A DNA stretch of 64,000 nt from contig OX638348.1 in assembly GCA_951813085.1 (NCBI GenBank), positions 4,535,627 to 4,599,626 on the forward strand. The letters run 5' to 3'. Origin of the DNA: an uncultured Opitutaceae bacterium (lineage in GTDB: Bacteria; Verrucomicrobiota; Verrucomicrobiia; Opitutales; Opitutaceae). The notes under the pieces are model-generated. The model searched no databases and was not told where the DNA came from. It worked only from the letters and a program-made list of their open reading frames with translations. Position 1 is the first letter of the stretch. Every line of letters starts with the position of its first letter. The position numbers and the translations under genes are program-made. Positions 4,489-51,084 of the stretch are shown here, in pieces.

Positions 4489-4613
4489 ATCCTTTGAATG
4501 AGGAGAGAGGTGTATGCCTGTCCGGCCAACCGGAGGCAAGCCAAATTCGGCAATTGAGGCGTCTCGCAATAATTACATTGGGAATTATGTATTTAACTTG
4601 ACAAAACCACTCA

Positions 4614-4832
4614 TTATTTGACTTCTTCTAGCGCGGGTTTCCCACACCTATCTATCCGCAGGACAAATCGCCGTTTCAAATCTTTTGCGCTGGGTATTGG
4701 CCGCCTATGATTGGGGAGAGCTCCAGCGCTTAGTAGCATTTTGACTGCTTCATCTAGGTGCCTTTGTGTATGTCTAGCCATAATTTTTGGTTCAAGAATC
4801 TCCGCCATTTGTCGAAATCGAACCATCCGCAT
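4614..4832 (-). CDS. Small conserved terminal reading frame of the IS1595-type element (copy 1)
   Basis: 72 residues. The last ~45 (from AVKMLLSAGALPNHRRPIPS onwards, then KRRFVLRIDR) match the small frame at 50724-50918 in copy 2 at about 80 percent identity, and both stop about 30 bases from the terminal repeat. Conservation at protein level between elements with different cargo suggests it belongs to the element rather than to the cargo. Its N-terminal residues overlap the end of the Cys-rich gene in another frame, so the true start may lie closer to AVKMLL. I do not recognise the family. A basic peptide beside the inverted repeat might be an accessory DNA-binding protein or the tail of a lost gene. 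Confidence 0.55.
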   Translation of the reverse strand: MRMVRFRQMAEILEPKIMARHTQRHLDEAVKMLLSAGALPNHRRPIPSAKDLKRRFVLRIDRCGKPALEEVK

Positions 4833-5437
4833 CCGATCCGACCATCTTTGTCTTTTTTGCTGTTACCTTGCCATTTGCCATCGCCTTCATAAAAAAACCT
4901 GATGCCAAGCGGTGTTCCCCGTTTGCCGCGTGTAGAGCAGCTTTCGCAAGCACGCCTTTTCAGTGAATTATGGCTAACGCTTCCGTTAGGCCTCTTTAGC
5001 AATTGAAAATTTCCCCTAATGCCGTTACCCGGCAGGTTGCTGCACCGTGCTTGCGCTTGCTTCGTTTCTTCATCCCACCCTAGCATGGGAAGCTTACGGT
5101 CAAGGGCAAGTTGATTTATTGGCCGTTCCGTTCCCTCGATTACATCGCGATGGCCCAACGATCCAGATGCCCGTCTGGCAAAGCTAGGCTGCATGCCTGC
5201 GCCCTGAACAGGTGATACGAACTGACCTGCCCATCTGTCCTGCCGCGTTGTCCTGCCGCAATTTCCACAAAAATGATTCGCACGCTCGATTTCAATTCCA
5301 GGCCGAGAGCCTGTACCGCGTTCCAAACCCCGAATACCTCCACCGCCAGCTATTTGCGCGACATTCAATTCTCCATATCCACATTCTCTGCAATGCCACT
5401 GCTGATCCTTAAGAATTGAAAAAACGCCCTGCATCAT
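4754..5437 (-). CDS. Cys-rich protein, possible restriction or HNH-type endonuclease (IS cargo)
   Basis: 227 residues, located between the transposase and the small terminal frame of IS copy 1. There are two CxxC-type metal sites near the N-terminus (WHCRECGYG, then HFCGNCGRTTRQDRW). Later come conserved-looking stretches: KLPMLGWDEET, SVSHNSLKRRACESC, GKRGTPLGIRFFYEG and GCIGCGWFDF-like residues near the C-terminus. The layout (zinc sites, a histidine in SHN, paired Cys) is reminiscent of HNH-type type II restriction enzymes, and the equivalent position in copy 2 holds an R-M system. No methyltransferase accompanies it. The nuclease call is inference; a non-catalytic zinc protein is possible. 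Confidence 0.5.
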   Translation of the reverse strand: MMQGVFSILKDQQWHCRECGYGELNVAQIAGGGGIRGLERGTGSRPGIEIERANHFCGNCGRTTRQDRWAGQFVSPVQGAGMQPSFARRASGSLGHRDVIEGTERPINQLALDRKLPMLGWDEETKQAQARCSNLPGNGIRGNFQLLKRPNGSVSHNSLKRRACESCSTRGKRGTPLGIRFFYEGDGKWQGNSKKDKDGRIGCGWFDFDKWRRFLNQKLWLDIHKGT

Positions 5438-5466
5438 TCGCTAAGGCACTTATGCTAAGAACCCTA

Positions 5467-6391
5467 TTAAGCCGGCAATGCTTTATAGGCGAGTGCTTTT
5501 CCACCCATCCGACTGAACAAACTGCTTAGTCCTTCCTGCGTATCCCGCCCGCAGCACCCTTCATTCGACCTAAATGAAAACTCGTCTACATAAGCCCGAC
5601 AATGCTTTCTGCTCCAGCTATGATAAATCCCGTTGTAACCGCGCTTTGATACCGCCCAGACGCTTTCCATGCCATTTGCGTGGGCCATGCCGTTTACGAG
5701 CTCCTTTGCGCTGCGATTGACCGTATCGTGCCGATAAGCCCTCCCAAGGCCTACATGCCCCTCATGGCCATCGGCGCATAGCTGGCTTCCAGCGGTAGCA
5801 TTCTCATGGACCGTAGGCTGCAGGGCATGTTGGATCGGTATTGCTTATTGGAACCGCCCTAACGTGACCGCCGCGCGCTTTCATGCCTATGGCTGCTTGC
5901 TTGCCAACCGCCCCCCGTCCTGCCTTGAGCCTCTTGCTCTCATGCTTGTCGGCTTCCTTGCCGCCAAGGCAGGTTTCGCCAATCCCTATGTGGCCGCTCA
6001 ACGCCTGGAGGTCTTCACCGCAAGCCAATCGCGAGCGATGCAACATGCACCATGCCGCCCGTTGCCGTACCCCAATCTCTTTGGATGGTTGCAAAGGAGA
6101 GATACCTTTGCGTGAAGCCATCAGGGCGCAAGAGGCATATATCCACTTGCGGATATCCACCTTGCTACGCTCCATCGGCGTATTGGTGAATGCATTGAAG
6201 CATCCACGGCAATCCCCACACCAATAATCCCCTGCTTTCTTCTGCGCTGTGACCTTCCCATCACAGCCACATTCAACGCATGCTGGCTTATCGCCCCAGC
6301 GTATCCCCTCGAAATACCGGATTGCATCCTCCCCGGCCTTATGCAAGTCCATGATTTCGTACAGGCTTAACGCTGTCGCTTCCTTACCCAT
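5467..6391 (-). pseudogene. IS1595-family (ISXO2-like) transposase, frameshifted
   Basis: Starts at MGKEATALSLYEIMD. It has the family zinc ribbon (ACVECG, then YWCGDCRGCF) followed by RKWIYASCALMASRKGIS and the transposase fold (GRGAVGKQAAIGMKARGGHVR). One extra base near 5833 (GATCCAACATG where copy 2 has GATCAACATG) throws the frame. The remainder (SQLCADGHEGHVGLG, SAKELVNGMAHANGMESVW) continues in another frame to 5467. The first catalytic Asp is also missing: the motif normally reading x-V-D-E-T-Y is GIGETCLGGK here, and equally in copy 2. The element is therefore not expected to be autonomous. Confidence 0.88.
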
Positions 6392-6594
6392 GGCATCTCC
6401 CCCTGCTTCTTTGCAGAATACTGTAATTAGTAAACATATTATCGGGGTTTCCCAAGGTTTTGTCAAATTTTGTACTGAAATGGTTTATCCTGTTGCCAAG
6501 TTAAATACATGATCCCCATTAATTTCTCCTTTGCGAAAAAAGCATTTGAAATCGGGTGGCGGGCTCCCCAAGTTTTCCAGCCTTTCCTTTATGT

Positions 6595-6672
6595 CGGGCC
6601 ATGGCGCAGCCTGGTTAGCGCGCTTGTCTGGGGGACAAGAGGTCCCGAGTTCGAATCTCGGTGGCCCGACCA
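6595..6672 (+). tRNA. tRNA-Pro (anticodon GGG)
   Basis: A 78-nt cloverleaf with acceptor CGGGCCA/TGGCCCG, D-arm GCGCAGCCTGGTTAGCGC, anticodon arm CTTGTCT-GGG-GGACAAG, T-arm CCGAG-TTCGAAT-CTCGG, discriminator A and encoded CCA. This is the intact copy. The copy at 16314 is interrupted at its 3' end by the island, and a displaced 3' end lies at 27459-27484. Confidence 0.95.
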
Positions 6673-6707
6673 TTTTTCGCTCTAGTACCAGAACTCCACC
6701 GAGTCGC

Positions 6708-7133
6708 TTGAAAGCACGTTCACTGATTTCTCTTCGTTTCCTGATTCCTCCGATTGCGTTGCTTGCGACGATCGCCTGGGGATCGAGCTTTGACAAAAGC
6801 TCTCCGCAGGGGCCGGATCTCGATTATTTCGACAAGGTAGCCCATTTTTTTGTATTCGGGTTGCTGTCTACTCTTTGGTATCGCTGGCTTCCGGGCGGGT
6901 TGAGGTCCAGTAAACGATTCGCATGGGCATTTGCGCTAACAATAGTATATGGAATAGTGGATGAATGGATACAGTCGTACAATCCGCTTCGGACTTCCGA
7001 TCCGATGGATATTGTCGCAGATGGCGTCGGAGCGATAGTCGCGATAGTCGTTTATTGCCGATGGCGTTTCTACCGTCGCGTTTTGGAGACGCCAATTTTG
7101 GATTTATTGAGACTGAAAATCGCCCCTGATTGA
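6708..7133 (+). CDS. VanZ-like membrane protein (intact copy)
   Basis: 141 residues from a TTG start (6708), chosen because it is shared with the second copy at 27520. There are about four hydrophobic segments: FLIPPIALLATIAWG, HFFVFGLLSTLWY, FAWAFALTIVYGIVDEW and VADGVGAIVAIVVY. The VanZ signature residues are present (FDKVAHFFVF; YGIVDEWIQSYNPLR followed by D-x-x-D-x-x-A-D). VanZ-family proteins are small polytopic membrane proteins; some affect glycopeptide tolerance, but most have no known function. It follows tRNA-Pro by 35 bases. The copy next to ligA is frameshifted, so this one may supply the function. Confidence 0.8.
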   Translation: MKARSLISLRFLIPPIALLATIAWGSSFDKSSPQGPDLDYFDKVAHFFVFGLLSTLWYRWLPGGLRSSKRFAWAFALTIVYGIVDEWIQSYNPLRTSDPMDIVADGVGAIVAIVVYCRWRFYRRVLETPILDLLRLKIAPD

Positions 7134-7181
7134 ACCATCATCTATCGCTTGCCACTTTCGAGAATGTCGCTTGGATAGGCG

Positions 7182-8059
7182 GGCTTTCTGGATCATCGGA
7201 AGCCGGGACGCGAATTTCGAGGCGAATCAATACGGATCGCACTTCAAGCGGTTCAATCGGGCTTTCGGGAATTTGACGGCGGCGGGGCTTTTTCGCGAGG
7301 CGGGGCGGTTTTCGGCGTGGGTGGACGATTTGCCGTACGCGCAGGACACGAAGCGGAATCAGTACAAGCGAGTCAATGTGGCGTTTTCGTGGGCGCTGCG
7401 AGGGGCGCATCGACCGGCATCCGTTCGCCAGGCTGAAGCCTCCGAGGAGGAAGCGGGCGGACATCGAGTTTCTTTCGCTTGAGGACGGGAGGATCCTGCT
7501 GCGGGCGAACCTGCGATTCCCGGGGCGATGCGCTAAGCTGGCTTTGGAGATGTTCGCGGGGATGCGCGCCAGCGCGGTCTCTCGGCTCGAGTGGCGGGAC
7601 CTCAAGTTCGATCTCCCGGGGATAGAGACTCCGGCCTGGAAGGCGAAGGCGGGGCGGCGGCAGCTGATCGAGGGCTTGCCGACGAATCTCTGGAAGTGGA
7701 TCGAGAGGGCGGGGCCGGAGGATTTCGCTCCGGCGTGCTAGAAGCCGAAGAGCCCGGAGCATCGGAAGGACTGGATCGACCGTCGCAAGACGGCTTGGAT
7801 GCATGAGAAGAGCGCCGCTCTGAAGGTGGCGGGATTGAAGATCGCGGCGGCGGACGAGCGGCCGGAGAAGGGGATCTTCGCGAAGTCGCCTCCGAGGAAT
7901 TGGGCGCGGCACACGTTCGCCTCCAATCATGTGGCGGCGTTCGGGGACTTGGCGTTGACGTCTACTTTGATGAGCCATGCGCAATCGACTGAAGTGCTTC
8001 GGGAGCGCGAGTCGGGGCGAGGTTTAGGAAGTTCCGATAAAATATCGGGTTTGTATTGA
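7182..8059 (+). pseudogene. Tyrosine recombinase (integrase), decayed
   Basis: Integrase pieces lie in three frames: an N-terminal core-binding-like part (SHFKRFNRAFGNLTAAGLFR), then FLSLEDGRILL with AGMRASAVSRLEWRDLKFD (region of the first catalytic Arg), and after a stop near 7741 a part with RHTFASNHVAAFGDLALTSTLMSHA (H-x-x-R-H box). The final Tyr segment is not convincing. The remnant starts exactly where block A ends. It may be the integrase that brought the 7.2-15.9 kb region beside the tRNA-Pro block. Confidence 0.7.
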
Positions 8060-8548
8060 AGTATAAGCCGCAGTATGTCGTAGGTGTTTATACGTAGACA
8101 GAGGATAGGGACTTCAGAAATTAACTGAGATTCGCTACCCTTTCACAATCAACATCTTGCAACCGTAAACGCCTGACTGTCAACGCCGGTTTTCGACGCC
8201 GAAAACCGGAAAACAGGCAAGAAGGTATAGAAAAAAGGGGTAGAAAGCCCCGCAAGGGGGGAGGCGTTTCCATGAGTTGACTCCAGTTGCATTGTATGAC
8301 CTTGCACCCCTAAAACGTCCGGTATAATTGGGGTTATTAAGTATATCATTCCCTAATTTTTGTATATCTTCCGCGTACTACCACAACAGGCGCACACTAT
8401 CCCTGCACCCCATCGCAGTTTTTCCAAGTGGTTGATACAGGATTGTTCGTCACGGAAAACTTCCAACATTTGAACAAGTGAATTGTATCGCATTTGTGAT
8501 GCCGCCTTACTTGATGACCCCGATTACAGCCGATATTGTAGGGGTGTG
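8060..8548. other. Gene-free stretch with hairpin and a diverged inverted repeat
   Basis: No convincing gene. A perfect 10-bp hairpin (CCGGTTTTCG, loop ACGC) lies at 8186-8209. A segment at 8294-8343 and one at 8508-8553 match each other in opposite orientation at roughly 70 percent; the shared words, read on the outer strand, are TACTTRATRACCCC and AGGGGTG. The pair flanks about 165 bases and resembles the ends of a small non-autonomous mobile element. The short minus-strand reading frame over 8149-8349 lies inside this repeat and is not counted as a gene. Confidence 0.4.
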
Positions 8549-9376
8549 TCATAGTCGGCTCCCCAGTTTCTCAAGTTTGTCTCGCAAGTTTTGTTCGAAT
8601 TCTCCGCGCTTGATGGTGTCCGCCGCCAAGAGCTTGTCGCTGGATGCTTCAAGCGACAGGACCTCCCAATGGCCCCGCTTCAAACGACGATCTGCACCCA
8701 TGCGCGGCACAAGCCAAACAATGTCGCCGTCATCAAGGTCCTGAGATGGGTTGCCGGACGGACCACCAATCGCTTCAAAGAACGGATAATCGACAGAAAC
8801 GGCGAGTTTGGTGCCCCATCGTCGCAAGGTCGGCCCCTTAACTTGAAGTTGCGGCATGAGCCTTTTTGCGCTTGAAGACCGCCAGTCAGGACGGCGCGGC
8901 GCAGATGGCGAAGGCGGGTCCCTTTCTTCACTCTCCAACAGCATTCGGAAATCGGCCTCCATGCCTTTGCCAGAGAAATAAACAGCCTGAATCTCCAACC
9001 CGTACCAGTCCGACGCCTGGTTATTCCCGGCTACTACTAGATCGATTCGCCCTGCGGCACGCCCGGTTGACGGTGATCGCATAAATGGTACTTCGGGCGC
9101 GACATACACATCTTGAAAGCCAACAATCTCAGCGAGCCACAGTGGAATCAGATTTCCCTCCTCGAATCGCCGCGGACAGGTGATAACCGGGTCGTTCTCC
9201 CTGGATTGGATCGAACACACGCCGCCTTTCTTGCTGCAAGGCGGGTTTCCCGACTGGAAAGGACAGGGCGGCGGGGCGGTCTGTTTCAATGCGGCTCGGG
9301 CGAAAGCCTGCCTTTGAGGCGGCGCAAGCGTTGTTAATGGATGGCCGAACCACTCAGCGATTCCGTACCGGCTCAT
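8549..9376 (-). CDS. NotI-family type II restriction endonuclease
   Basis: 275 residues. The N-terminus RYGIAEWFGHP, followed by CPF...NPPCSKKGGVCS and CPRRFEEGNLIPLW, is the hallmark of the NotI restriction enzyme family; the cysteines correspond to the iron-binding fold of NotI. GRIDLVVAG followed by GLEIQAVYFSG is the likely PD-(D/E)xK site (D, then E-x-Q as in NotI relatives). NotI itself cuts GCGGCCGC; the site of this enzyme cannot be read from sequence. Its start overlaps the methyltransferase stop by 4 bases (ATGA), a tight R-M operon with the methyltransferase made first. Confidence 0.88.
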   Translation of the reverse strand: MSRYGIAEWFGHPLTTLAPPQRQAFARAALKQTAPPPCPFQSGNPPCSKKGGVCSIQSRENDPVITCPRRFEEGNLIPLWLAEIVGFQDVYVAPEVPFMRSPSTGRAAGRIDLVVAGNNQASDWYGLEIQAVYFSGKGMEADFRMLLESEERDPPSPSAPRRPDWRSSSAKRLMPQLQVKGPTLRRWGTKLAVSVDYPFFEAIGGPSGNPSQDLDDGDIVWLVPRMGADRRLKRGHWEVLSLEASSDKLLAADTIKRGEFEQNLRDKLEKLGSRL

Positions 9377-10254
9377 GCAAACAGCGGGCTGGAAGTAATC
9401 ACCAGTTCCGGCATTTGGTTGTGATGGGTGTTCTTCATGGATAGCAAAACCGCGTCGAAGTCGTGCTTCCTTACCAGATCAATAATTTGGGGAGATGCGT
9501 CATACGTCATTAGGAAGCAAGGACGATACTTGGCAAGCAGCGCGAACAATCTTGCGTGGTCAACTTCCGAATGCGCATAGAGCCGAGACCCGGCGCGCTT
9601 GCCGCCGTCACCGGTATATGGGGGATCTAGAAACACCGCTGCCTGGCGGCCCCAGCCGCGCAATAGAGACGGCAACAGCTTTACCCCGTCGCCTTCGAGG
9701 AAAGTGATGCGATCATTGCAGTTCTGCAAGGCCAACAGACGCTCGGCAAGCGTATCAGGATACCAGCGCGACAGGATGCCGCGCCCATTCTCGCCCTGGC
9801 GGCTAAACGATGCGCCCGGAGCCAAAATCCCGCCCCGCCGGGTACGGTTCAAAACGAGAGTGCGAAAGGCGTGCTCTTCAAGGGATCTAGGCGGTTCGTT
9901 CAACAGCTTGTTCAGGCTTTCCAGGGTTGGCTCGAATTGCCTAACCCGTTCAGCCAGCGTTGTCCCTGATTCAAAAGCGCCCCGCCAAAACGCGGCAACG
10001 TCCCTGTCAATTTCCAGCATCACGGCCTCACCAACAAGGTTTTCCGCAATCGCCGTCAAGGTCGCGATGCCGCCCCCCGCAAACGGCTCGATCAGGAGCC
10101 GCGCGCCCGCATGACGCAACCACTCTCTGATGTGCGGGATCAACCACGTCTTGCCACCGGGATAGCGCAAGGGACTGCGCTGCGGAACGGTCGCGACATT
10201 GACGACCGGGATCCGGGAAACGGGAAAATCGGCTACAGCCGTAGCCGCACTCAT
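9373..10254 (-). CDS. D12-class DNA adenine methyltransferase, partner of NotI-type enzyme
   Basis: 293 residues. S-adenosylmethionine-binding start SPLRYPGGKTWLIPHI (the RYPGGK box of Dam/D12 enzymes), then LIEPFAGGGIATL (motif I), NRTRRGGIL, and catalytic VFLDPPYTGDG (DPPY). C-terminal end: MPELVITSSPLF. It is the upstream gene of the R-M operon and should methylate adenine in the site cut by the NotI-like enzyme. Its ATG overlaps (ATGA) the stop of a 23-codon leader frame that is the captured 5' end of a DUF6941-like gene (see 10251-10322), so it is probably expressed by translational coupling. Confidence 0.88.
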   Translation of the reverse strand: MSAATAVADFPVSRIPVVNVATVPQRSPLRYPGGKTWLIPHIREWLRHAGARLLIEPFAGGGIATLTAIAENLVGEAVMLEIDRDVAAFWRGAFESGTTLAERVRQFEPTLESLNKLLNEPPRSLEEHAFRTLVLNRTRRGGILAPGASFSRQGENGRGILSRWYPDTLAERLLALQNCNDRITFLEGDGVKLLPSLLRGWGRQAAVFLDPPYTGDGGKRAGSRLYAHSEVDHARLFALLAKYRPCFLMTYDASPQIIDLVRKHDFDAVLLSMKNTHHNQMPELVITSSPLFA

Positions 10255-10322
10255 GATCGCGCCTCTACAATTGTACTGTCTGAAAACAGGAAAGCTGCTA
10301 AAATAGGTTCAGATTTGGACAT
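10251..10322 (-). pseudogene. Captured 5' end of a DUF6941-like gene acting as leader of the R-M operon
   Basis: A 23-codon frame beginning MSKSEPILAAFLFSDSTIVE, with stop TGA inside the ATGA that starts the methyltransferase. It matches residues 1-21 of the intact protein at 13460-13879 (MSESEPVLVAFLLSDSAIVE) with conservative changes; similarity ends abruptly where the methyltransferase begins. So the R-M operon was joined to the start of a second copy of that gene and probably uses its ribosome binding site and promoter. Confidence 0.75.
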
Positions 10323-10437
10323 AAGGAACGGGAACAGATGTATCCATCCGCGATTCTATCAGACTAGTCAAGGCTTGGAATAGTCGGGTAGTGTCCTAAT
10401 TTGAATTGATGAAATCCGGAACTATGTCATTTTTGAA

Positions 10438-10500
10438 ATTGGTGGAGGTGTGGGGAATCAAACCCCATGGGCCACGATTGTAGAGTCCGGCCAGCCTCTG
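10438..10500 (-). other. tRNA/tmRNA 3'-end-like fragment
   Basis: Read on the minus strand, the segment ends with GGGG-TTTGATT-CCCC (a T-arm-like hairpin), ACACCTCC, A, CCA. This is the layout of a tRNA or tmRNA 3' end, and ACACCTCC-A-CCA is close to the usual tmRNA terminus. No matching 5' half is nearby and the T-loop departs from TTCGA. It may be a decayed attachment site left by a phage, supported by the P63C remnant next to it. Confidence 0.35.
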
Positions 10501-10521
10501 CCGCCCCCATCAATAAGGAGT

Positions 10522-11265
10522 TTAACGAACCGATTTTCTTTTCTTTATCGGGGTAGACGTTCCGAGTTCGGTTACCTCAATTATTGGATAAGCCTTGTCT
10601 ATGAATTTCTTAAACTGCTCCCAGCTATTTGAGACCCTCATCAAGGCGGTAACGGCCTCAATGTGGGCTCTCAGTTGCGGATGTCCTACATTTCCGGTAA
10701 GCCACTGAAGAAGCTTGTTCTTCCTTCTTCCCTTAGCCACCGGTGGAGATTTAGATTTCAATTCATCGACGATACCAGGGGCAAGTCTTTTGTAGACAAT
10801 ATCCATCGTGTAGGCGCTAATGACCCTTGGCCCCTGCATTGTGGCAGGATCAAATTTCCACTTCTTCAATCGAAATATTTCTTCATAGAAATCAGTCGGA
10901 AATGTCTTTGTCCAAGGTTGCAGCTCTTTGGCAATAAAGCGCTCTAGAATCTCCCCCAAGGCGTTTCGGGCCCGTTCGTATTGGTAGCCCGTAGCCTCGT
11001 CAACCAGTGCCGTGATGCCAACATGCGCCAGGGCTCGCATTATCAGTTTCGCTTTCGCTGCTATCTCGATTTGGGTTTTGCGAAGTTTGCCGTTTTCGTC
11101 GGCGTCTAGCCATACGTCGCATATTTTTGGAATGATCTCGGCCTTGATCCCGATCGCCGACCTCCCGTTTTCAGTCCTGTATTTCACTGTGATATTCTGC
11201 AGGTGACCTAAATGCTTGGTTATGAACGGCTGCAGGTTCTTAAATGCTAGGAATCGCGGGACTTC
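10522..11265 (-). pseudogene. P63C-domain phage protein, 5'-truncated
   Basis: An annotatable frame of 221 residues begins at a GTG (11187), but the same frame stays open upstream with family-like sequence (FLAFKNLQPFITKHL) to about 11265. The body carries the P63C pattern: GIKAEIIPKICDVWLDA, GYQYERARNALGEILERFI, then TKTFPTDFYEEIFRLKKW and a G-H-P-x-L-x-x-H near the C-terminus. Complete family members have some 80 more N-terminal residues, replaced here by an unrelated plus-strand frame. Function is unknown; P63C proteins are common in prophages. Confidence 0.7.
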
Positions 11266-11510
11266 TGCAGGTGAAGCCGAAAAGCAGGACCAAGTATCTG
11301 GATTCGCTGATGATCAAGGAGGTTCTAGAGAAACCGCTATGCGTTTTCGGCGGCCTCAAGCGGGAGAACATGGCGGACGGGCGATGCTACTGCGGTGTTG
11401 CGAAAACGAGATTTCTTGACAAAGGTATTAAAGTTCCTTTCCCGCCTGACAGACTTTTCGTGGTGTTCGTAAACGATAGAGACGAGATATTCGACTGGGA
11501 CATGGTCTAG
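11244..11510 (+). CDS. Hypothetical protein, possibly phage-derived
   Basis: 88 residues from ATG 11244, with a composition like a real protein (KYLDSLMIKEVLEKPLCVFGG, then RLFVVFVNDRDEIFDWDMV). It starts inside the truncated P63C remnant on the other strand, so it was joined there by rearrangement and its first 12 or so codons may not be original. It is followed on the same strand by three further small genes including a holin remnant. No family recognised. Confidence 0.45.
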   Translation: MLGIAGLLQVKPKSRTKYLDSLMIKEVLEKPLCVFGGLKRENMADGRCYCGVAKTRFLDKGIKVPFPPDRLFVVFVNDRDEIFDWDMV

Positions 11511-11569
11511 GAGAGTCCCGCATTTTCTAAGTTCCCGAAGGATTTCGACGATAGATTCACTGAATTGCT

Positions 11570-11815: not shown

Positions 11816-11818
11816 CCG

Positions 11819-12191: not shown

Positions 12192-12242
12192 AGGCGTTTC
12201 GGCCCTTGCAATGGCGGCGATAATACATAGCTTGAAACGGAA

Positions 12243-12518: not shown

Positions 12519-12686
12519 TCTGCGTATTTAGAAGCTTCTCTACAAAATCCCATTCCTTACGTGTTATGTATTCGGAATCCGAATTTCCTGCTTCTGGAGC
12601 TATTTCTAGAGATGAAGTTGTACTCATTCGTAGGCAATTATCGTCTTTATACGATTTTTCCTCTCGAGAAGACACCCTGAGGGGAG

Positions 12687-12902: not shown

Positions 12903-12925
12903 TTCCCTGGAGAGCTAGCTTCTTG

Positions 12926-12957: not shown

Positions 12958-12963
12958 TGCAGA

Positions 12964-13236: not shown

Positions 13237-13242
13237 GAAAGG

Positions 13243-13455: not shown

Positions 13456-13459
13456 GGAT

Positions 13460-15843: not shown

Positions 15844-15967
15844 CTTCGGTAACGCGGTTCACTAGTGTCCAACTAAGGATGTGTTTCTATTTTCTAAGGT
15901 TATGGCGTTTGATGCGCCCTGGAAAAAGAGGGCAATCGATCCGTTGGGTTTAAAAAGGGAAGGAGGA

Positions 15968-16054
15968 TGGTACCAGAGGCCGGACTCGAACCGGCACACC
16001 ATTGCTGGCGGGAGATTTTGAATCTCCTGTGTCTACCAATTTCACCACTCTGGC
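15968..16054 (-). tRNA. tRNA-Leu (anticodon CAA), second copy
   Basis: Identical in sequence to the gene at 4313-4399: the same acceptor stem, CAA anticodon, class II variable arm and encoded CCA. Confidence 0.93.
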
Positions 16055-16095
16055 ACTGCTTAGATTTTACTATTTTCCTTTTGGGATACAAAATC

Positions 16096-16143
16096 GCTTG
16101 CGGATTTTGAATCCGCCGCGTCTACCAATTCCGCCACCTGGGC
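16096..16143 (-). pseudogene. Truncated tRNA-Leu, second copy
   Basis: Same cut as 4441-4488. Here the 5' end reads GCCCAGGTGGCGG, closer to a normal leucine tRNA than the GCCTAGG of block A. Confidence 0.7.
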
Positions 16144-16313
16144 ATCCTTTGAATGAGGAGAGAGGTGTATGCCTGTCCGGCCAACCGGAGGCAAGCCAAA
16201 TTCGGCAATTGAGGCGTCTCGCAATAATTAATTTCTCCTTTGCGAAAAAAGCATTTGAAATCGGGTGGCGGGCTCCCCAAGTTTTCCAGCCTTTCCTTTA
16301 TGTCGGGCCATGG

Positions 16314-16376
16314 CGCAGCCTGGTTAGCGCGCTTGTCTGGGGGACAAGAGGTCCCGAGTTCGAATCTCGGTGGCCC
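16314..16376 (+). pseudogene. tRNA-Pro (GGG) interrupted by the island (attL)
   Basis: Identical to 6595-6657 in block A up to TGGCCC, after which TAGGGG replaces GACCA, so the last acceptor pair and CCA are lost. The last 21 bases (16356-16376) recur at 27459-27479, where they are followed by the missing GACCA. Confidence 0.85.
16356..16376. repeat. attL core of the island
   Basis: 21 bases of the tRNA-Pro T-arm and 3' acceptor strand, starting GAGTTCGAATC and ending GGTGGCCC. Identical to 27459-27479. Confidence 0.85.
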
Positions 16377-27458: not shown

Positions 27459-27484
27459 GAGTTCGAATCTCGGTGGCCCGACCA
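27459..27484 (+). pseudogene. tRNA-Pro 3' end displaced by the island (attR)
   Basis: 21 bases identical to attL followed by GACCA, which completes the acceptor and CCA missing at 16376. No 5' half precedes it. Same 3' end as the intact tRNA-Pro at 6595-6672. Confidence 0.85.
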
Positions 27485-27519
27485 TTTTTAGCTCTAGTAC
27501 CAGAACTCCACCGAGTCGC

Positions 27520-27944
27520 TTGAAAGCGCGTTCACTGATTTCTCTTCGTTTCCTGATTCCTCCGATTGCGTTGCTTGCGACGATCGCCTGGGGATCGAGC
27601 TTTGACAAAAGCTCTCCGCAGGGGCCGGATCTCGATTATTTCGACAAGGTAGCCCATTTTTTGTATTCGGGTTGCTGTCTACTCTTTGGTATCGCTGGCT
27701 TCCGGGCGGGTTGAGGTCGAGTAAACGATTCGCATGGGCATTTGCGCTAACAATAGTATATGGAATAGTGGATGAATGGATACAGTCGTACAATCCGCTT
27801 CGGACTTCCGATCCGATGGATATTGTCGCAGATGGCGTCGGCGCGATAGTCGCGATAGTTGTTTATTGCCGATGGCGTTTCTACCGTCGCGTTTTGGAGA
27901 CGCCAATTTTGGATTTATTGAGACTGAAAATCGCCCCTGATTGA
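27520..27944 (+). pseudogene. VanZ-like gene, second copy, frameshifted
   Basis: About 99 percent identical to the intact copy at 6708-7133. One T is missing from a run (T6 at about 27657-27662 versus T7), which stops the first frame at 27714; the remainder (GIVDEWIQSYNPLR onwards) continues in another frame to 27944. It lies between attR and ligA, the probable original location. Confidence 0.88.
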
Positions 27945-27989
27945 ACCATCATCTATCGCTTGCCACTTTCGAGAATGTCGCTTGGATAG

Positions 27990-30005
<2,016 letters not shown>

Positions 30006-37909: not shown

Positions 37910-37924
37910 GCGAAAAAGGGAACG

Positions 37925-44705: not shown

Positions 44706-44799
44706 ATGAGTGGTTGAAATTCTGTTCAGGCTTTTGACTGGAGCCGATTTTCAGATTAGAAGATGAGAAGACTAGTTTCCTGGAAACTGCAAGGACTCG

Positions 44800-45744
44800 A
44801 TGAGCAAACCGATTTACTTTAAACCTATTTATCAAGAACGCGTTTGGGGCGGCCGAAATCTCGACAGGGCCCTAGATAGACGACTCCCCGACGACAAGGT
44901 GATCGGCGAGAGCTGGGACGTTGTTGACCGCGATGAGGCGATGTCGCTAATAGAGGGAGGAGAGCATGACGGAAGGTCCTTGCGAGAAATTATCGTGGAG
45001 AATCCGACAGCGATTATGGGTGAAGGTTACGATCCAGAGCGTCCTTTTCCGATTCTTGTCAAATGGTTGGATTGCTCCGATCGATTGAGCCTGCAAGTAC
45101 ACCCGCCTGCCTCCATCGCTCCCGAGCTTGGGGGCGAGCCCAAAACGGAGAATTGGTATATAGCCGATTGCGCGGGGAATGCGTCGCTTATCGTGGGGCT
45201 CCGCAACGGGGCTACGAGGGAGGAATTCGAGGAGCGTCTCGAGTCAGGAACTTTGGAAGCGTGCGTCCATCGCTTCCCTGTGACTCCGGGCGAGTCGATA
45301 CTGGTGGAGAGCGGCCGCATCCATGCCATCGATGCAGGGAACCTGATCCTGGAGATTCAGCAGAATTCAGACACGACCTATCGCGCCTATGATTGGGGGA
45401 GGGTTGGCTTGGACGGCAGTCCGAGGCAGCTCCATGTAGATCAGTCGCTTAAGTGCATTGACTGGAATGATTTCGAGCCTTCCGCTATCAAACCCGAGGA
45501 TGGCGCGAGCGTACTCGCCGATTGCCCTGAATTTCGTTTGCTGAAGTACGACCTGAAAGCGGGGGATGACGCGATTTCGCTGGATGCGGGGGCCGCGCGT
45601 CTTGTTAGCGTGGTAAATGGATGCGTTAGGCTGGGAGAAGCAGATGTCCCTAAGGGAGCTACTGTATTGCTACCCGCTTGCGATGGATTTGATGCGACCG
45701 CGTTGGAGGATGCTACTCTATTAGTAACGGATCGATTTACCTGA
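44800..45744 (+). CDS. manA: Mannose-6-phosphate isomerase, class I
   Basis: 314 residues. FKPIYQERVWGGRNLDRALD, zinc ligands in SLQVHPP (Gln and His), a Glu in the EPKTENWY stretch and His in SGRIHAID, and the conserved Arg in LEIQQNSDTTYRAYDWGR. It interconverts mannose 6-phosphate and fructose 6-phosphate. The cupin C-terminal domain is short but present. Confidence 0.92.
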   Translation: MSKPIYFKPIYQERVWGGRNLDRALDRRLPDDKVIGESWDVVDRDEAMSLIEGGEHDGRSLREIIVENPTAIMGEGYDPERPFPILVKWLDCSDRLSLQVHPPASIAPELGGEPKTENWYIADCAGNASLIVGLRNGATREEFEERLESGTLEACVHRFPVTPGESILVESGRIHAIDAGNLILEIQQNSDTTYRAYDWGRVGLDGSPRQLHVDQSLKCIDWNDFEPSAIKPEDGASVLADCPEFRLLKYDLKAGDDAISLDAGAARLVSVVNGCVRLGEADVPKGATVLLPACDGFDATALEDATLLVTDRFT

Positions 45745-45780
45745 CCGATACGCGGGCCGATAGTCCGCCCACACATTCTG

Positions 45781-46434
45781 GTGAGTTCCATAGTAAAAGA
45801 AGATCGAACAGATCGTGAACGCATTCGCGATTCGGAATTGAATGCCCGGAGGGGAGGCATTTTACGCTCGGCCGTATTCTTGGGGCTGTTCGTTTCCGCG
45901 TTGTGCATCTTGCTTTGGATGCTCGCCGCCCCGCAGCTGATTCGAATGAAGCTCGAGGGCGATACCCAGTTTTCATGGGAGGCGAAGCGCCTGTCGTGCA
46001 ATCCTTTCGGTTTCGATATGCGTATCGAGGATGCGGTGCTGGGAAACTCGACGGACTTTGGAGAGGGGCGCCCTATGATGCGTATCCGGTCGTTCGAAAC
46101 CAGCGGGTCCTTCAAGTCGTTGATTTCGGGTCCGGCTGAATTGGATGTGGTTTCATTGGATATTAGCCGCTTATCGCTTATTATCGACGAGCGCGGGGCT
46201 TTAAACCTGGAGCGATTCGTAGAGGACCTCCTGGGCGAGTCTCGGGGTCTTCGCGAGGGATTGAAGATTAGCGATTGCCGATTGAAGGTAGATACCGTGG
46301 AAATCATCGACTACTCAAGTCCGAGGCCCTCTCACAAGGCATTGAAGCTCGGAGTTGACGTGGAGGGGTTTTCGGCGGAAAGCGCGATCGGCCTATTCGA
46401 CCCATTGTTCGAGATCATGACGCGGTCGGACTAA
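45781..46434 (+). CDS. AsmA/DUF748-like membrane protein, short
   Basis: 217 residues from a GTG. One membrane segment (LRSAVFLGLFVSALCILLWM), then FSWEAKRLSCNPFGFDMRIE and a repeat-like beta pattern (LDVVSLDISRLSLIIDERGA) as in AsmA/DUF748 proteins, which link inner and outer membrane. It is only 217 residues where relatives are much longer, so it is either a small family member or truncated. The IS element lies only 59 bases after its stop codon. Confidence 0.6.
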   Translation: MSSIVKEDRTDRERIRDSELNARRGGILRSAVFLGLFVSALCILLWMLAAPQLIRMKLEGDTQFSWEAKRLSCNPFGFDMRIEDAVLGNSTDFGEGRPMMRIRSFETSGSFKSLISGPAELDVVSLDISRLSLIIDERGALNLERFVEDLLGESRGLREGLKISDCRLKVDTVEIIDYSSPRPSHKALKLGVDVEGFSAESAIGLFDPLFEIMTRSD

Positions 46435-46559
46435 TCTACCCGAGGGATTCGCATCCAGATTGTCCCGCAGCGGGCTGATATCTAATTTTTATGGGAATTA
46501 TGTATTTAACTTGACAACAGGACAACCCATTTCAGTACAAAACTTGACAATATCTTAAA

Positions 46560-46999
46560 ATAGTCCGATAATATCCAAGCTTTGAAGAGCATAAGGAAAA
46601 GACTTCCTTCGGTCTTCTCCAAGCCTTTACGCACGTTAACAAGCAAGCTTCCGGAATTACGCAACTGGAAGCCATGTCACAGTTCCGGGAACTGCGCCCA
46701 GTTGCTGTAGCGGCTTAAGCATATTAAAGGTCCAACCGGTTGGACCGGTCCTGATAAAGGTCCAACCGTTCCTGAAGGTGTTAAAGGTAATAAGGCAATG
46801 GTACTGCGGTACTGTGGCCAGGCTATGGTAGGCTGTCAGGTACGCCATGCTATGGTTCTGTGTACAAAGTATTTACAAAATAAAAGCTTGTGTTTTACAA
46901 CAAGATAAGCTAAACAAGCTAACGTTTGCATTTTTAAACCACATTTATAAAATTAGATATTATATACTGTTTAACAAAAAAATATGATGGGTACAGGTT
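46560..46999. other. Palindrome-rich segment between IS left end and transposase
   Basis: Copies 1 and 2 are alike for the first ~90 bases inside the end, then copy 2 has some 400 extra bases. They include an 18-bp perfect palindrome at 46730-46747 (GGTCCAACCGGTTGGACC) with a partial repeat near 46759, CAGTTCCGGGAACTG at about 46680, and repeated GGTACTG words. The last ~120 bases are very AT-rich and could hold the transposase promoter. No gene. Confidence 0.6.
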
Positions 47000-47939
47000 A
47001 TGGGGAGAAAAAGTAAGGCAAAAGTGTTAAACCTCTATGAAATCATGGACTTATATAAGCCCGAGGAGGATGCAATACGGTATTTTGAGGGGGTACGCTG
47101 GGGTGATAAACCAGCATGTGTTGAATGTGGCTGTGATGGGAAGGTCACAGCGCAGAAGAAAGCAGGGGATTATTGGTGTGGGGATTGCCGTGGATGCTTC
47201 AATGCATTCACCAATACGCCGATGGAGCGTAGCAAGGTGGATATCCGCAAGTGGATATATGCCTCTTGCGCCCTGATGGCTTCACGCAAAGGTATCTCTC
47301 CTTTGCAACCATCCAAAGAGATTGGGGTACGGCAACGGGCGGCATGGTGCATGTTGCATCGCTCGCGATTGGCTTGCGGTGAAGACCTCCAGGCGTTGAG
47401 CGGCCACATAGGGATTGGCGAAACCTGCCTTGGCGGCAAGGAAGCCGACAAGCATGAGAGCAAGAGGCTCAAGGCAGGACGGGGGGCGGTTGGCAAGCAA
47501 GCAGCCATAGGCATGAAAGCGCGCGGCGGTCACGTTAGGGCGGTTCCAATAAGCAATACCGATCAACATGCCCTACAGCCTACGATCCATGAGAATGTTA
47601 CCGCTGGAAGCCAGTGGAAGCCAGCTATGCACCGATGGCCATAAGGGGTATGTAGGCCTTGGGAGGGCTTATCGGCATGATACGGTTAATCATAGTGCAA
47701 AGGAGTTTGTCAACGGTATGGCCCACGCAAATGGCATGGAAAGCGTCTGGGCTGTATTAAAGTGCGGTTATAACGGGATTTATCATAGCTGGAGCAGAAA
47801 GCATTGTTGGGCTTATGTAGATGAGTTTTCATTTCGGTTGAATGAAGGGTATTGTCAGCGAGATACGCAGGAAAGACTAAACAGTTTGTTTAGTCAGATG
47901 GGTGGAAAAACACTCACCTATAGAGAATTGACGGGTTAA
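47000..47939 (+). pseudogene. IS1595-family transposase, copy 2, frameshifted
   Basis: Zinc ribbon Cys 40, 43, 60, 63 (ACVECG, YWCGDC), then the ISXO2-type domain. A 10-bp tandem duplication (TGGAAGCCAG, 47605-47624) breaks the frame, which then continues SQLCTDGHKGYVGLG, NGMAHANGMESVWAV to 47939. Gly140 sits where the first catalytic Asp of the DDE triad is expected (GIGETCLGGK), the same change as in copy 1. The break differs from copy 1 (one extra C), so the two copies were inactivated independently. Confidence 0.9.
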
Positions 47940-47960
47940 ATATCAAGGTAAAACAAGATC

Positions 47961-49786
47961 ATGAGCAGGTTAAACGAAAGGGATACTGAAAATATTGTAA
48001 GGCAACATTTTTACAAAGATAAATTGTTTGCCAAAATTACCATTGAAGAACAATCCTCAAACAACCCAAAAATAACAAAACTCTTAAAAGACGCCTCAAA
48101 AACAAGTAGCGGTATAGGCAAACCTGAATTTCTTATTTCAATAGATGATGAAGAAGATTTACTTATCGTTATAGAGTGTAAGGCAGATATATTAAATCAC
48201 GAAAGTGAAAATAGAAACCAATTTGCTGGTTATGCAGTTGATGGCGTTTTACGTTATTCTTCTTATTTATCTAAAGGATACAATGTTTTATCGTTAGCGG
48301 TTAGCGGTGTTGAGAAAGACAATATTAAAATTTCTTACTTTATTCAAAAGAAAGGTCAGGATATTACGGAGCAGATTTTTGGAAACAAATTAATCAGTAT
48401 TGATGATATTCTTTCTGGATTAAAACAAGATGATGCCAAAAGAAATGAAAAATATGAAGAATTATTAGATTACTCTAAAATTCTAAATGAGCAATTACAC
48501 AAATTAAAAATAAAAGAAGATAAAAGAAGTTTGCTTGTAAGTGGTATTTTAATAGCACTCAAAAATAAAGATTTTTACAGGAGTTACTCGGGGTTATCAA
48601 GTAACAAGATGTTAGTAGAAGCACTTGTCAGCACCATTAAAGAACAACTCAAAGATGAAGATTTACAAGGTAATAAAGTTGAGAGACTAATGGAAAACTA
48701 CAGTTTCATCAAAAGTCACCCAAGCCTAATACATAAAAACAAGGATAAAAAAACAAAAAGTCTAAAAGATTTGGTTGATGAAATTGATAATAATATTAAT
48801 GGTTATTCAAGAACATATAAATACTATGATGTTTTGGGACAGTTTTATATCGAGTTTTTAAGATATTCTAATGCCGATAAGGGATTAGGTATTGTCTTAA
48901 CGCCACCCCATATAACAGAGTTTTTTGCTGATATTGTAGATATACAGTATGCTGATGTTGTATTTGATAATTGCACAGGTACAGGCGGATTCTTAGTATC
49001 GGCAATGAAAAAGATGATTGAGAAATGTGGTGGCGATTTATCGCAAGAAAACAATATAAAGCATCATCGGCTATATGGAATCGAATACCAACCTGAAATA
49101 TACCCACTCGCTGTATCAAATATGTTCTTACACGGAGATGGCAAGAGCAATATTGTTGGCGGTAGTTGTTTTGATAACGACACCATTAAAAAAATTAAAG
49201 AAAAAAAGCCAACAGTTGGTTTTTTAAACCCCCCCTATAAATCAGAAAAAACGATATAGAAGAATTTGAATTTGTATTAAACAATTTAGATTGCTTAGAG
49301 AAGCACGGCAGGTGTGTGGCTATTATTCCTATGAGTTGTGCCTTAGCGCAAAAGGGGCAAAGGTTAAGATTAAAAGAAAAACTGCTATCTAAACACACTT
49401 TAAAAGCGGTGTTTTCTATGCCTAATGAATTGTTTAAAAATTCTAAGGTAGGAGTTGTAACTTGCATAATGGTATTTGAAGCTCACATACCACACCCAGC
49501 AAACAAAAAAACTTTCTTTGGGTATTTTAAAGATGACGGTTTCTATAACAAAAAAACAAAAAATAGGTTTGATTATGATAATCAATGGCAAGGCATAAAA
49601 GAGAAGTGGATGAATCTATATACTAATAATACTGTTAAAGCTGGTTTTAGCGAAGTTTATAAAGTGTCAGCAGACGATGAATGGTGTGCAGAAGCGTATA
49701 TGGAAACTGATTATTCAACACTAAGTAAAGATGACTTTACAGAGACACTAAAGAAGTATGTCGCCTTTGATATATTAAATGGATGA
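47961..49786 (+). pseudogene. BcgI-like restriction-methylation polypeptide, frameshifted
   Basis: The first frame (432 residues to 49259) has an N-terminal PD-(D/E)xK-like nuclease (PEFLISIDDEEDLLIVIECK; E72-x-K74), a helical linker, and an adenine methyltransferase with motif I DNCTGTGGFL (336-345) and NPPY (423-426). After a missing A in the run at 49245-49250 the second frame continues IEEFEFVLNNLDCLEKHGRC and VVTCIMVFEAHIPHP to 49786. Joined, this is a single-chain nuclease plus N6-adenine methylase of the type IIB/IIG kind, with its partner specificity gene next. The frameshift in an A-run could be phase variation, decay or an assembly error. Confidence 0.85.
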
Positions 49787-50666
49787 TATTATGAAAACTG
49801 TACCTCTATGTAAAATTTTTGATATTAAGTACGGTGTTAATTTGGAGTTATCTAATATTGAACAAAACAAGAACGGCATTCCTTTCGTGTCAAGAACAGG
49901 AAATAATAATGGTGTAAGCGCAAACGTTTCTTTAATTGAGGGCGTTGAACCAAATCCAGGAAATACCATTTCTGTAGCAGGTGGCGGGTCTGTTATGTCT
50001 AGTTTCTTACAAAAGAAACCTTATTATAGTGGTCGGGATTTATATTACTTGAAACCTAAAACAAAACTTACCGATAATGAGATGCTTTATTATTGCATGT
50101 GCTTAAGAGCAAATAAATATAGATATTCATACGGTAGACAAGCAAACAAAACCCTAGACACCTTATTAGTTCCATCATGGGATAACATTCCTGATTGGGT
50201 GAATATAGCAGAGGTTAAAAATCCAATTAAAAATGAAGTATTTGAATTAAAAACAAAACAATGGCAATACTTTAAATTAGTAAAATTGTTTGAAATAACG
50301 GGTAGCCAAACAATCTCCATTTGGGAATTAGAAGAATATGGTGTTGGCAAGTATCCTTATATCACAACACAAGCAACCAATAATGGAGTTGGCGGTTTTT
50401 ATGATTTTTATACAGAGGAAGGGGGGTGTTTAACTGTTGACAGTGCTGTGATAGGTTATTGCTCATACCAAAAAGATAATTTTTCAGCAAGTGATCATGT
50501 GGAAAAACTTATACCAAAATTCAGAATGAATAAATACACCGCACTGTTTTTAACCACAATAGTCAATTTGGAACAGTATAGATACAATTATGGCAGAAAG
50601 TGTAGTCAAACTAGAATGAAAGAAATTAACATAAAATTACCAGCAAATAATGGCAATCCAGATTGA
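49779..50666 (+). CDS. Specificity subunit of the BcgI-like R-M system
   Basis: 295 residues. Two target-recognition-domain halves: residues ~1-140 (VPLCKIFDIKYGVNLELSNI; NKNGIPFVSRTGNNNGVS; YSYGRQANKTLDTLLVPSWD) and ~155-295 (WQYFKLVKLFEITGSQTISI; YPYITTQATNNGVGGFYD; YNYGRKCSQTRMKEINIKLP). The repeated order is that of HsdS-like proteins. It overlaps the end of the R-M gene by 8 bases, so it is coupled. It sets the recognition sequence, which cannot be predicted. Confidence 0.9.
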   Translation: MDDIMKTVPLCKIFDIKYGVNLELSNIEQNKNGIPFVSRTGNNNGVSANVSLIEGVEPNPGNTISVAGGGSVMSSFLQKKPYYSGRDLYYLKPKTKLTDNEMLYYCMCLRANKYRYSYGRQANKTLDTLLVPSWDNIPDWVNIAEVKNPIKNEVFELKTKQWQYFKLVKLFEITGSQTISIWELEEYGVGKYPYITTQATNNGVGGFYDFYTEEGGCLTVDSAVIGYCSYQKDNFSASDHVEKLIPKFRMNKYTALFLTTIVNLEQYRYNYGRKCSQTRMKEINIKLPANNGNPD

Positions 50667-50723
50667 CAATTTATGGAAGACTATATTAAGTCATTACCTT
50701 ATTCAAAATCATTATGATAATAA

Positions 50724-50918
50724 TTGAACACTTTTTACACGTGTAAAATAAATAATAGAATAAAACAAAAAGATATAAATAAAGCAGCTAAAATGTTACT
50801 AAACGCTGGCCATCTTCCAAATCATAAGCGGCCAATACCCAGTGCAAAAGACTTGAAAAGGCGATTTGTCCTGCGGCTAGACAGACGGGGTAAACCCATA
50901 CTAAGAGAAGTCAAATAA
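50724..50918 (+). CDS. Small conserved terminal reading frame of the IS1595-type element (copy 2)
   Basis: 64 residues. DINKAAKMLLNAGHLPNHKR followed by KRRFVLRLDRRGKPILREVK matches the frame at 4614-4832 closely, and the sequence after the stop (TTAGTGGTTTTGTCAAG) is also shared. The first ~18 residues (MNTFYTCKINNRIKQK) are not shared. Unknown function. Confidence 0.55.
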   Translation: MNTFYTCKINNRIKQKDINKAAKMLLNAGHLPNHKRPIPSAKDLKRRFVLRLDRRGKPILREVK

Positions 50919-51084
50919 TTAGTGGTTTTGTCAAGTTAAATACATAATTCCCTAATTTATAGATAGTAAAAGGTGGCGCGAAGGAACAAATGGAGCTGGA
51001 CCTTCTCGAAAAACTTTTTTATTCTAGATGGTTCAATCCGAAAGAACAGTAATTCAGAGGCAAAACGAATTTAGAAGCTAAGTA

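Follow-up and report, generated by a model that had tools for sequence, protein, structure and literature searches.

The window, by which we mean the whole 64,000-nucleotide stretch of DNA that was analysed, contains two insertion elements of the IS1595 type that share their ends and carry different cargo. Their features are listed below, where L025 denotes an intact relative elsewhere in the same genome:

4572..4579: octamer flanking copy 1, ATTACATT, matching the octamer at 6518-6525 in 6 of 8 positions
4580..6517, minus strand: copy 1, a short IS1595-type element of 1938 bp, present in the genome in seven near-identical copies
4580..4604: copy 1 terminal inverted repeat, cargo end
4614..4832, minus strand: copy 1 small terminal open reading frame (ORF), conserved core of about 52 aa at 4614-4769
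4754..5437, minus strand: copy 1 orphan type II restriction enzyme, probably inactive (LDHK in L025 is LDRK here), with no methyltransferase
5467..6391, minus strand: copy 1 broken IS1595 transposase, with a frameshift and IDETY changed to IGETC
6493..6517: copy 1 terminal inverted repeat, transposase end
6518..6525: octamer flanking copy 1, ATTAATTT, the same as in the empty paralogous site
15939..16376: tRNA-Leu/tRNA-Pro paralogous stretch without the element, an empty target site with its junction at about 16227-16234
46493..50952, plus strand: copy 2, an IS1595-type element of 4460 bp with a BcgI-like restriction-modification (R-M) cargo
46493..46517: copy 2 left terminal inverted repeat
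47000..47939, plus strand: copy 2 broken IS1595 transposase, with a 10-bp duplication, a frameshift and IGETC
47961..49786, plus strand: copy 2 BcgI-like type IIG nuclease-methyltransferase subunit, with a frameshift in an A run near 49250
49779..50666, plus strand: copy 2 specificity subunit
50724..50918, plus strand: copy 2 small terminal ORF, conserved core at 50763-50918
50928..50952: copy 2 right terminal inverted repeat

BLASTN within the window finds that the two copies have in common 918 bp of the transposase gene (93% identity), 177 bp of the right end (85%), 87 bp of left subterminal DNA (83%) and an exact 26 bp of the terminal repeat, with E-values for the four matches of 7e-08 to 0.0. 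Together with the cargo profiles, these matches bear out the preliminary description, which had recognized two IS1595-type elements alike in their ends but not in their cargo. Its span for copy 2 is retained, as is its left edge for copy 1; the right edge of copy 1 lies at 6517, one base beyond the 6516 given there. Inverted repeats of about 25 bp are present, as required by the IS1595 family, of which Siguier 2009 is reportedly the founding paper. The octamers flanking copy 1 agree in most positions and its empty site is visible in the paralogous tRNA stretch; those flanking copy 2 agree in only 5 of 8 positions, and the 8-bp target repeat is not clear there.

The cargo of copy 1, previously described as a Cys-rich putative nuclease, is indeed a nuclease, and more exactly the type II restriction enzyme of L025 without its methyltransferase (PADLOC PDLC03537, 7.6e-53). 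Judged by its sequence, it is one half of a type II pair from which the methyltransferase has apparently been lost. In copy 2, the reported BcgI-like pair is upheld by PADLOC matches to a type IIG methyltransferase-nuclease (PDLC03608, 5.5e-96) and a specificity subunit (PDLC03594, 1e-40), and by N6_Mtase and Methylase_S domains, so that the subunit pair of a BcgI-like type IIB system is present. Systems of this kind cleave on both sides of their recognition site. The name BcgI follows the preliminary description, and the frameshift in the type IIG gene could be a sequencing error. Searches of the restriction enzyme and the transposase against solved structures gave 0 matches each at E-values up to 1. 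The terminal ORF of about 52 aa sits in the right end of about 187 bp and is found again as a protein in seven elements. A chance origin of this ORF was considered and rejected: a single-pass search matched it at 9.1e-12 to L075, an element with a transposase of 68% identity.

Both window transposases have lost the first catalytic Asp, which is Gly in each; L025 keeps the Asp, and it is invariant in 10 of 10 aligned relatives. The pieces of the copy 2 transposase match both IS1595 domains (zinc-ribbon and DDE_Tnp_IS1595), and the window copies are dead members of the family and not outsiders. That they are working elements is ruled out by the breaks in both transposases; the earlier reader did not see that both copies are dead. 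In the middle of the transposase the two genes are also identical over an uninterrupted 445 bp, while identity outside this tract is 59-96% per 50 columns, a pattern that points to gene conversion between the copies. The longest identical runs with L025, by comparison, are only 45 and 26 bp. A host-wide mutation bias as the source of the copy 1 substitutions was also rejected: two other repeats in the window have 2 and 5 transitions against 8 and 13 transversions, respectively, at few sites, and both MutL and MutS are found in the genome.

Nine elements in the genome have these ends: the seven short copies, copy 1 included, which are at least 99.48% identical; copy 2; and L025. The last is intact and contains a transposase, a methyltransferase, a type II restriction enzyme and the small terminal ORF between ends flanked by a perfect 8-bp target repeat (8/8). 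Its transposase matches PF12762 (6.2e-42) and PF12760 (3e-9), the DDE and zinc-ribbon domains of IS1595 members. Its methyltransferase (PF01555, 6.5e-26) adjoins the restriction enzyme (PDLC03537, 6e-68), which makes it, unlike copy 1, a type II R-M system, and the passenger genes lie inside the repeats, as in a transporter IS (tIS). In all, this genome contains seven R-M sets behind IS1595-type transposases.

Close relatives with the same ends carry other cargo. The transposases of L073 and L074 are 92-93% identical to that of L025. L073 contains a type III system (Mod PF01555, 3.9e-23, in two frames; Res PF04851, 3.6e-16), the methyltransferase of which has no BLASTP match at 1e-3 to that of L025. 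L074 contains the BcgI-like system of copy 2, at 89.9% identity over 3065 bp in a separate assembly; BcgI-like cargo is recorded for L033/L074. L078, with a transposase that is an 88% relative, has no cargo. The target repeats agree in 8/8 positions in L074 and in 7/8 in L073 and L078. Most relatives, these three among them, are from metagenome-assembled genomes, in which chimeras and single-base indels occur, and the cargo genes of L073 and L074 are themselves in broken frames. The slot extends from the transposase stop codon to the right end, and the cargo stays inside the repeats in L025, L074, copy 2 and L073. Collecting elements with the same ends and listing their cargo, the check suggested in the preliminary description, returns cargo that differs and, in these elements, does not run past the repeats. 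Its idea of one slot with exchangeable nuclease cargo and a conserved terminal frame holds, the slot being filled by a type II system (L025), a BcgI-like system (L074 and copy 2), a type III system (L073) or nothing (L078). The different systems behind nearly the same backbone suggest transposons that may spread exchangeable restriction systems; its further proposal, that this is a way to spread them, is deduced from sequence comparison and not from observed movement.

When the wider family is surveyed together with the L025 clade, a methyltransferase is found in 22 of the 71 distinct elements, in 16 of them together with a nuclease; a further 20 have other ORFs, 120 aa or longer, and 28 have none or only short ORFs. 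By source, methyltransferases are found in 3/37 elements from viral_contigs versus 19/34 of the others, and the exact end sequence has 0 matches in viral_contigs. R and M genes lie within repeats and target repeats in L064, L067, L069, L075, L120, L134, L138, L141, L294 and L308, as they do in L225, L077 and L086; the nuclease matches are weak in L067 and L069. R-M cargo recurs in IS1595 lineages beyond the L025 clade, and other lineages have different cargo or none. R-M as an obligatory cargo is rejected by the empty L078 and by the 28 elements with none or short ORFs. In eight annotated plasmid regions (of 154 plasmid records with a match), the product names reveal no R-M immediately behind the transposase; in one of the eight, the Entomospira plasmid copy, a methyltransferase gene lies on the opposite side, about 4 kb upstream.

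On the transposase tree, elements with R-M cargo fall into clusters. With elements labeled for R+M, IIG, M only or one fragment, 5 changes are needed versus a shuffled mean of 18.2, and 0 of 500 shuffles are as low. The label is carried by 5/5 rows of the L025 clade (5/6 with L078, which is absent from the tree) and by 9/9 of a second clade. The type of R-M system varies while carriage clusters. Within 3 kb downstream of the transposase a methyltransferase is found at 37/149 loci, versus 1/95 upstream, counted with queries taken from the same loci; when same-locus queries are excluded, 39 of all 185 loci have a methyltransferase downstream and 2 have one upstream, with copies not collapsed. 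In 21 such elements, 40 of 41 cargo ORFs are colinear with the transposase, and in 5 of the 21 the cargo starts 4 bp before the transposase stop on the same strand.

These elements could be ordinary tIS with random passengers, among which R-M is often seen since R-M systems are common mobile genes. Other cargo does exist (PIN/VapC-type genes on two plasmids, a DUF1541 protein in another IS1595 relative and further unnamed genes), and of the 71 elements 20 have other cargo and 28 none or short ORFs. However, carriage is clustered, with sets of 5/5 and 9/9 on the tree, and R and M genes mostly occur together, in the direction of the transposase and sometimes overlapping its stop, which makes random loading unlikely. 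That the R-M genes only sit beside transposases in defence islands, outside the element, we find hardly credible: although automated detection of ends with target repeats came up empty at 105/185 transposase loci, the enclosure of R-M genes by ends and 8-bp target repeats already contradicts it, as does the downstream bias of the methyltransferases. A repeated transposase might also have been linked to unrelated R-M genes during metagenome assembly, given the origin of L073, L074, L078 and others and the broken frames of several cargo genes. Such an artefact is very improbable, however, because the copy 2 cargo occurs again in a different assembly, the seven short copies agree so closely and the target repeats of L025 and L074 are intact.

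We consider it probable that certain IS1595 lineages are specialized in exchangeable R-M cargo, with carriage inherited and the system replaced. Such an element consists of a left repeat, the transposase, the cargo slot, the backbone ORF of about 52 aa and the right repeat, the slot in the L025 lineage usually containing an R-M system transcribed in the direction of the transposase. The whole unit would be moved by the IS1595 transposase, making the 8-bp target repeat. Carriage of some R-M system would be passed down certain transposon lineages. One system would give way to another, most likely when elements present in the same cell undergo homologous recombination via their shared transposase and right-end sequences; no completed cargo exchange was seen inside one genome. 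The R-M pair probably kills cells from which the element has been lost, so maintaining the element in the genome, and may also defend the host. Copy 1 would be an L025-like element decayed through methyltransferase loss and substitutions, and the seven short copies may have moved in trans (for instance, by the intact transposase of L025) or before the decay.

Like the IS1595 family and its tIS, these elements combine a zinc-ribbon and DDE transposase, inverted repeats of about 25 bp, an 8-bp target repeat and passengers beside the transposase (PMC5704250, PMC11891212, PMC8101967). The tIS passengers described in the available portions of these papers are transcription regulators (ISNha5, of the IS1595 family), methyltransferases (an IS1380-family example) and resistance genes; unlike in those tIS, several R-M types here fill one slot and carriage tracks the transposase lineage. 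MTnSag1 and tISCpe8 are similar in their IS1595-type transposase, 25-bp repeats and passenger genes but differ in conjugative mobilization and, in tISCpe8, lincomycin resistance, and the portions of PMC5704250 available to us describe no R-M or exchangeable slot. The accessible text of PMC3031569, which cites Rochepeau 1997 and Khan 2010 on IS-linked mobile R-M, reports that such movement was shown in the laboratory, argues that R-M systems are selfish and lists transposons among R-M carriers. Its mobile complexes are R-M genes with IS copies on either side, or cointegrates mediated by IS, whereas here one element, equipped with its own transposase and ends, contains the R-M system. Clusters of hsdMSR upstream of an IS1595 are mentioned in the part of PMC10214660 that we could consult. 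A single IS1595 element with R-M cargo is not described in the available parts of PMC12707154, PMC3031569, PMC5704250, PMC9296519, PMC7371123, PMC11891212, PMC8101967, PMC10214660 and PMC3339403; an earlier mention in Siguier 2009 or ISfinder is possible.

More tentatively, and with somewhat less than even confidence, R-M may be a standing part of the life of these transposons and not cargo taken up by chance: selection acting on the element would keep some R-M in the slot, lineages would trade systems through the transposase and right-end gene, one genome would collect many, and the protein of about 52 aa may couple cargo to transposition. That R-M systems travel is already known; a dedicated, exchangeable R-M slot in a simple transposon lineage would give them a direct vehicle. 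If true, the record of swaps could be ordered on the transposase tree, the elements would offer a testable model for whether R-M addiction benefits the carrier element, and new restriction enzymes could be found by reading IS1595 slots.

The two IS1595-type elements of the window, located by their end sequences, are as follows.

4580-6517, minus strand: copy 1
46493-50952: copy 2

BLASTN between the two window regions shows that they share the transposase (918 bp, 93% identity), the right end (177 bp, 85%), the left end (87 bp, 83%) and an exact 26-bp terminal repeat, in agreement with the preliminary description. That description had also assigned them different cargo, and correctly so: its Cys-rich putative nuclease in copy 1 is a type II restriction enzyme (PADLOC PDLC03537, 7.6e-53), and the cargo of copy 2 is a BcgI-like nuclease-methyltransferase plus a specificity subunit. 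Copy 1 is flanked by tRNA-Leu and tRNA-Pro genes, and a second tRNA-Leu/tRNA-Pro stretch (15939-16376) lacks the element and represents an empty site. The octamers flanking copy 1 still match at 6 of 8 bases, and the empty paralogous site would fit an 8-bp duplication; those of copy 2 match at 5 of 8, so that its target repeat is not clear. Repeats in the window regions 4284-7198, 15939-16376 and 27459-28009 comprise the tRNA-Leu/tRNA-Pro stretch, present twice, and a 552-bp stretch extending past tRNA-Pro, repeated at 98%; this is possibly a tRNA-targeted island.

Allowing 2 mismatches, the genome has 18 matches to the end sequence, nine per strand (control pattern, 0). Paired, they delimit nine elements: copy 1 and its short counterparts, seven in all and mutually at least 99.48% alike; copy 2; and an intact relative, L025. 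The latter has an intact transposase (307 aa), an N6_N4 methyltransferase (338 aa; PF01555, 6.5e-26), a restriction enzyme (241 aa; PDLC03537, 6e-68), the small terminal reading frame and a perfect target repeat, ATTTGAAA. The short copies are accordingly derived from an L025-like element by loss of the methyltransferase.

The preliminary description had proposed a cassette slot in which cargo is exchanged behind shared ends, and the comparison with related genomes upholds this. Scanning genome_contigs with the L025 transposase gave 17 loci, three of which have both ends of the L025 type: L073 (transposase 93% identical to L025) carries type III genes, with Mod in two frames and a Res of 844 aa; L074 (92% over 250 aa) carries the system of copy 2 (89.9% over 3065 bp), its genes in broken frames; and L078 (88%) is without cargo. 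Agreement between the flanking octamers is 7/8, 8/8 and 7/8, respectively. Two other loci, L084 and L079, have one end of this type, and no matching right end was found. Homology between elements ends at the transposase stop codon and returns in the last ~187 bp, and the methyltransferases of L025 and L073 have no mutual match at 1e-3. It is very likely that there are IS1595 lineages with exchangeable restriction-modification (R-M) cargo in this slot, if slightly less so in view of the weak nuclease matches of two elements (L067 and L069) and of L078 as an empty clade member; that R-M cargo came to lie behind the transposase through an assembly artefact is highly improbable. Passenger genes in IS1595 elements and IS-linked movement of R-M systems are known, and in the literature searched, which does not include the founding paper of the family, no single IS1595 element with an exchangeable R-M cargo was found.

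The small terminal frame that had been described as common to both copies is indeed shared. When every frame of 30 aa or more behind the transposase was searched in 73 elements, it recurred at the right end of seven (L025, copy 1, copy 2, L073, L074, L078 and L075), whereas L077, which branches outermost in the clade, gave no match. In L075 it scores 9.1e-12 in a profile-free, single-pass search, although the transposase is only 68% identical and the right end has no BLASTN match; the frame is thus conserved at the protein level. The variable sites by codon position (18, 12 and 24) alone favour coding only mildly; as a guess, the product is a regulator or a transposition accessory.

In both window copies the transposase is split over two frames, by one extra base in copy 1 and a 10-bp duplication in copy 2, and both have Gly in place of an Asp shared by all 10 aligned relatives, which, from the invariant D, D and E columns, would be the first of the DDE set. 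Both elements are dead. In the restriction enzyme of copy 1, the LDHK of the L025 enzyme, whose His we take to be that of an HNH site, has become LDRK. The nuclease-methyltransferase of copy 2 has one frameshift, within a run of A; homopolymer indels can be sequencing errors, and this cargo may therefore be intact in life. The copy 1 transposase (5467-6391), an example of those of the short copies, differs at 92 of the 774 sites on which L025, L073 and L074 agree: 81 are A>G or T>C, 6 are G/C>A/T transitions and 5 are transversions. The transposases of L025, L073, L074 and L078 have mixed spectra. The A>G changes in copy 1 favour an NAC context (40/90 versus 42/346 elsewhere), and the spectrum resembles the mark of mismatch-repair loss. 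MutL and MutS are nevertheless present in this genome, and the short copies were perhaps mutated in another host.

Copies 1 and 2 are identical over 445 bp in mid-transposase (with L025, the identical runs are only 45 and 26 bp) and otherwise 59-96% alike per 50 columns, which points to a conversion tract. On the two sides of any one of the seven short copies, the flanking octamers never agree within one mismatch; four cross pairs, left of one copy with right of another, do match, a number reached by 16 of 5000 random sets. Cross-matching octamers with none on their own sides suggest that crossing-over took place between short copies, which does not explain the same-side matches (L026 right with L028 right, L031 right with L032 right). 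The cross matches include L028 left with L030 right and L029 left with L031 right; the flank matches among L026-L032 suggest that the copies recombined with one another and so rearranged the chromosome, or misassembly at repeats. Recombination via the shared transposase and right end would carry cargo from one backbone to another; a completed exchange of cargo was not observed in any single genome.

Including L025 and copy 2, the genome has seven R-M sets behind IS1595-type transposases. Of the others, L064 has type III genes; L067 combines a C5 methyltransferase and an HNH-like protein; L069 has an HSDR_N-like gene together with N6 methyltransferase and specificity genes; L065, a locus whose left end is not resolved, has a specificity gene and a methyltransferase 35% identical to that of L069; and one type II pair is present in two copies (L066 and L070; inverted repeats 25/25 and 24/25, no target repeat). 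In addition, a PLD-Snf2-like helicase (L068:1622-4885, 1087 aa; PDLC01075, 6.5e-48) lies behind a partial IS1595 transposase.

A wider census took transposase loci from this genome and from genome_contigs, from the ten genomes to which the genome_contigs loci belong, and from 387 genomes of this phylum and 185 genomes of a single class; viral_contigs contributed its 80 best loci out of 228. Only part of the transposase hits was extended, and some places are in the sample twice. Ends with target repeats were obtained for 80 of the 185 loci that reach 600 bp (counting L074 and L077, with ends entered by hand) and not for the other 105, among which are the window copies. The 80 loci are 70 distinct elements, or 71 with L025, added by hand (its left end begins with T). 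Cargo, identified with PADLOC and Pfam (L310 by similarity to other methyltransferases only), comprises R and M in 13, type IIG-like in 3, M only in 6 (including L128, moved from R and M as one protein matched both query sets), an HSDR_N-like fragment in 1, other ORFs of at least 120 aa in 20, and none or short in 28. Types II, IIB/IIG, III and type I-like are all represented. Two of the 13 have weak nuclease matches: L067 (HNH, 3.4e-4), which has a T run as target repeat, and L069 (HSDR_N_2, 1.1e-5), whose ends agree at 14/22. A methyltransferase is carried by 22 of the 71 elements (viral_contigs, 3/37; others, 19/34); if only the 42 elements with an ORF of 120 aa or more are considered, the proportion is 22/42.

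In 33/73 elements (for example, L261, L273 and L262 of viral_contigs) the transposase is followed by a short motif resembling LDxIxDxVLAYRPKPK; the methyltransferase frame of L262 includes this motif, and the start of the L225 methyltransferase resembles it. Plasmids NZ_CP061092.1 and NZ_JX627580.1 are annotated with an IS1595 transposase, an unknown gene and a PIN/VapC-type gene, a layout also found in L147 (PIN gene judged by eye only); these are perhaps another lineage with addiction cargo. One MAG, G062, has 65 IS1595 transposase matches, and its five resolved copies have behind the transposase only a 100-113-aa ORF, whose similarity to HSDR_N_2 falls slightly short of the curated cut-off; it looks as though the remnant of an R-M system has spread.

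The methyltransferases lie almost exclusively downstream of the transposase: within 3 kb at 37 of 149 loci with enough sequence, against 1 of 95 upstream, with queries taken from the same loci and copies not collapsed. For the 78 loci with both flanks the counts are 14 and 1 (4 and 1 among the 61 from viral_contigs, 10 and 0 among the other 17). Without same-locus or near-identical queries, they are 39 and 2 among all 185 loci, partial flanks included. The 21 methyltransferase-bearing elements have 41 ORFs of 90 aa or more, all but one of which run in the transposase direction, and in six elements (L069, L075, L120, L128, L225 and L262) the first cargo ORF overlaps the transposase stop by 4 bp, five of these on the transposase strand.

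A tree of 68 transposases from the 71 elements (L064, L078 and L308, with no ORF of at least 200 aa, left out) was built by a quick method with SH-aLRT support, and has very long branches for L309 and L148. The R-M label (R and M 11, IIG-like 3, M only 6, fragment 1) changes 5 times on this tree, against a shuffled mean of 18.2 and with 0 of 500 shuffles as low, near-copies aiding the clustering. All members carry the label in three sets: L025, L073, L074, L075 and L077 (5/5, support 98; 5/6 with the empty L078); L067, L069, L086, L120, L128, L134, L138, L141 and L310 (9/9, support 99); and L293 with L294 (2/2, support 99). A set of 37 rows, mostly viral_contigs elements, has 3. From this clustering, R-M carriage belongs to certain lineages rather than to the family as a whole, and within those lineages the system itself varies.
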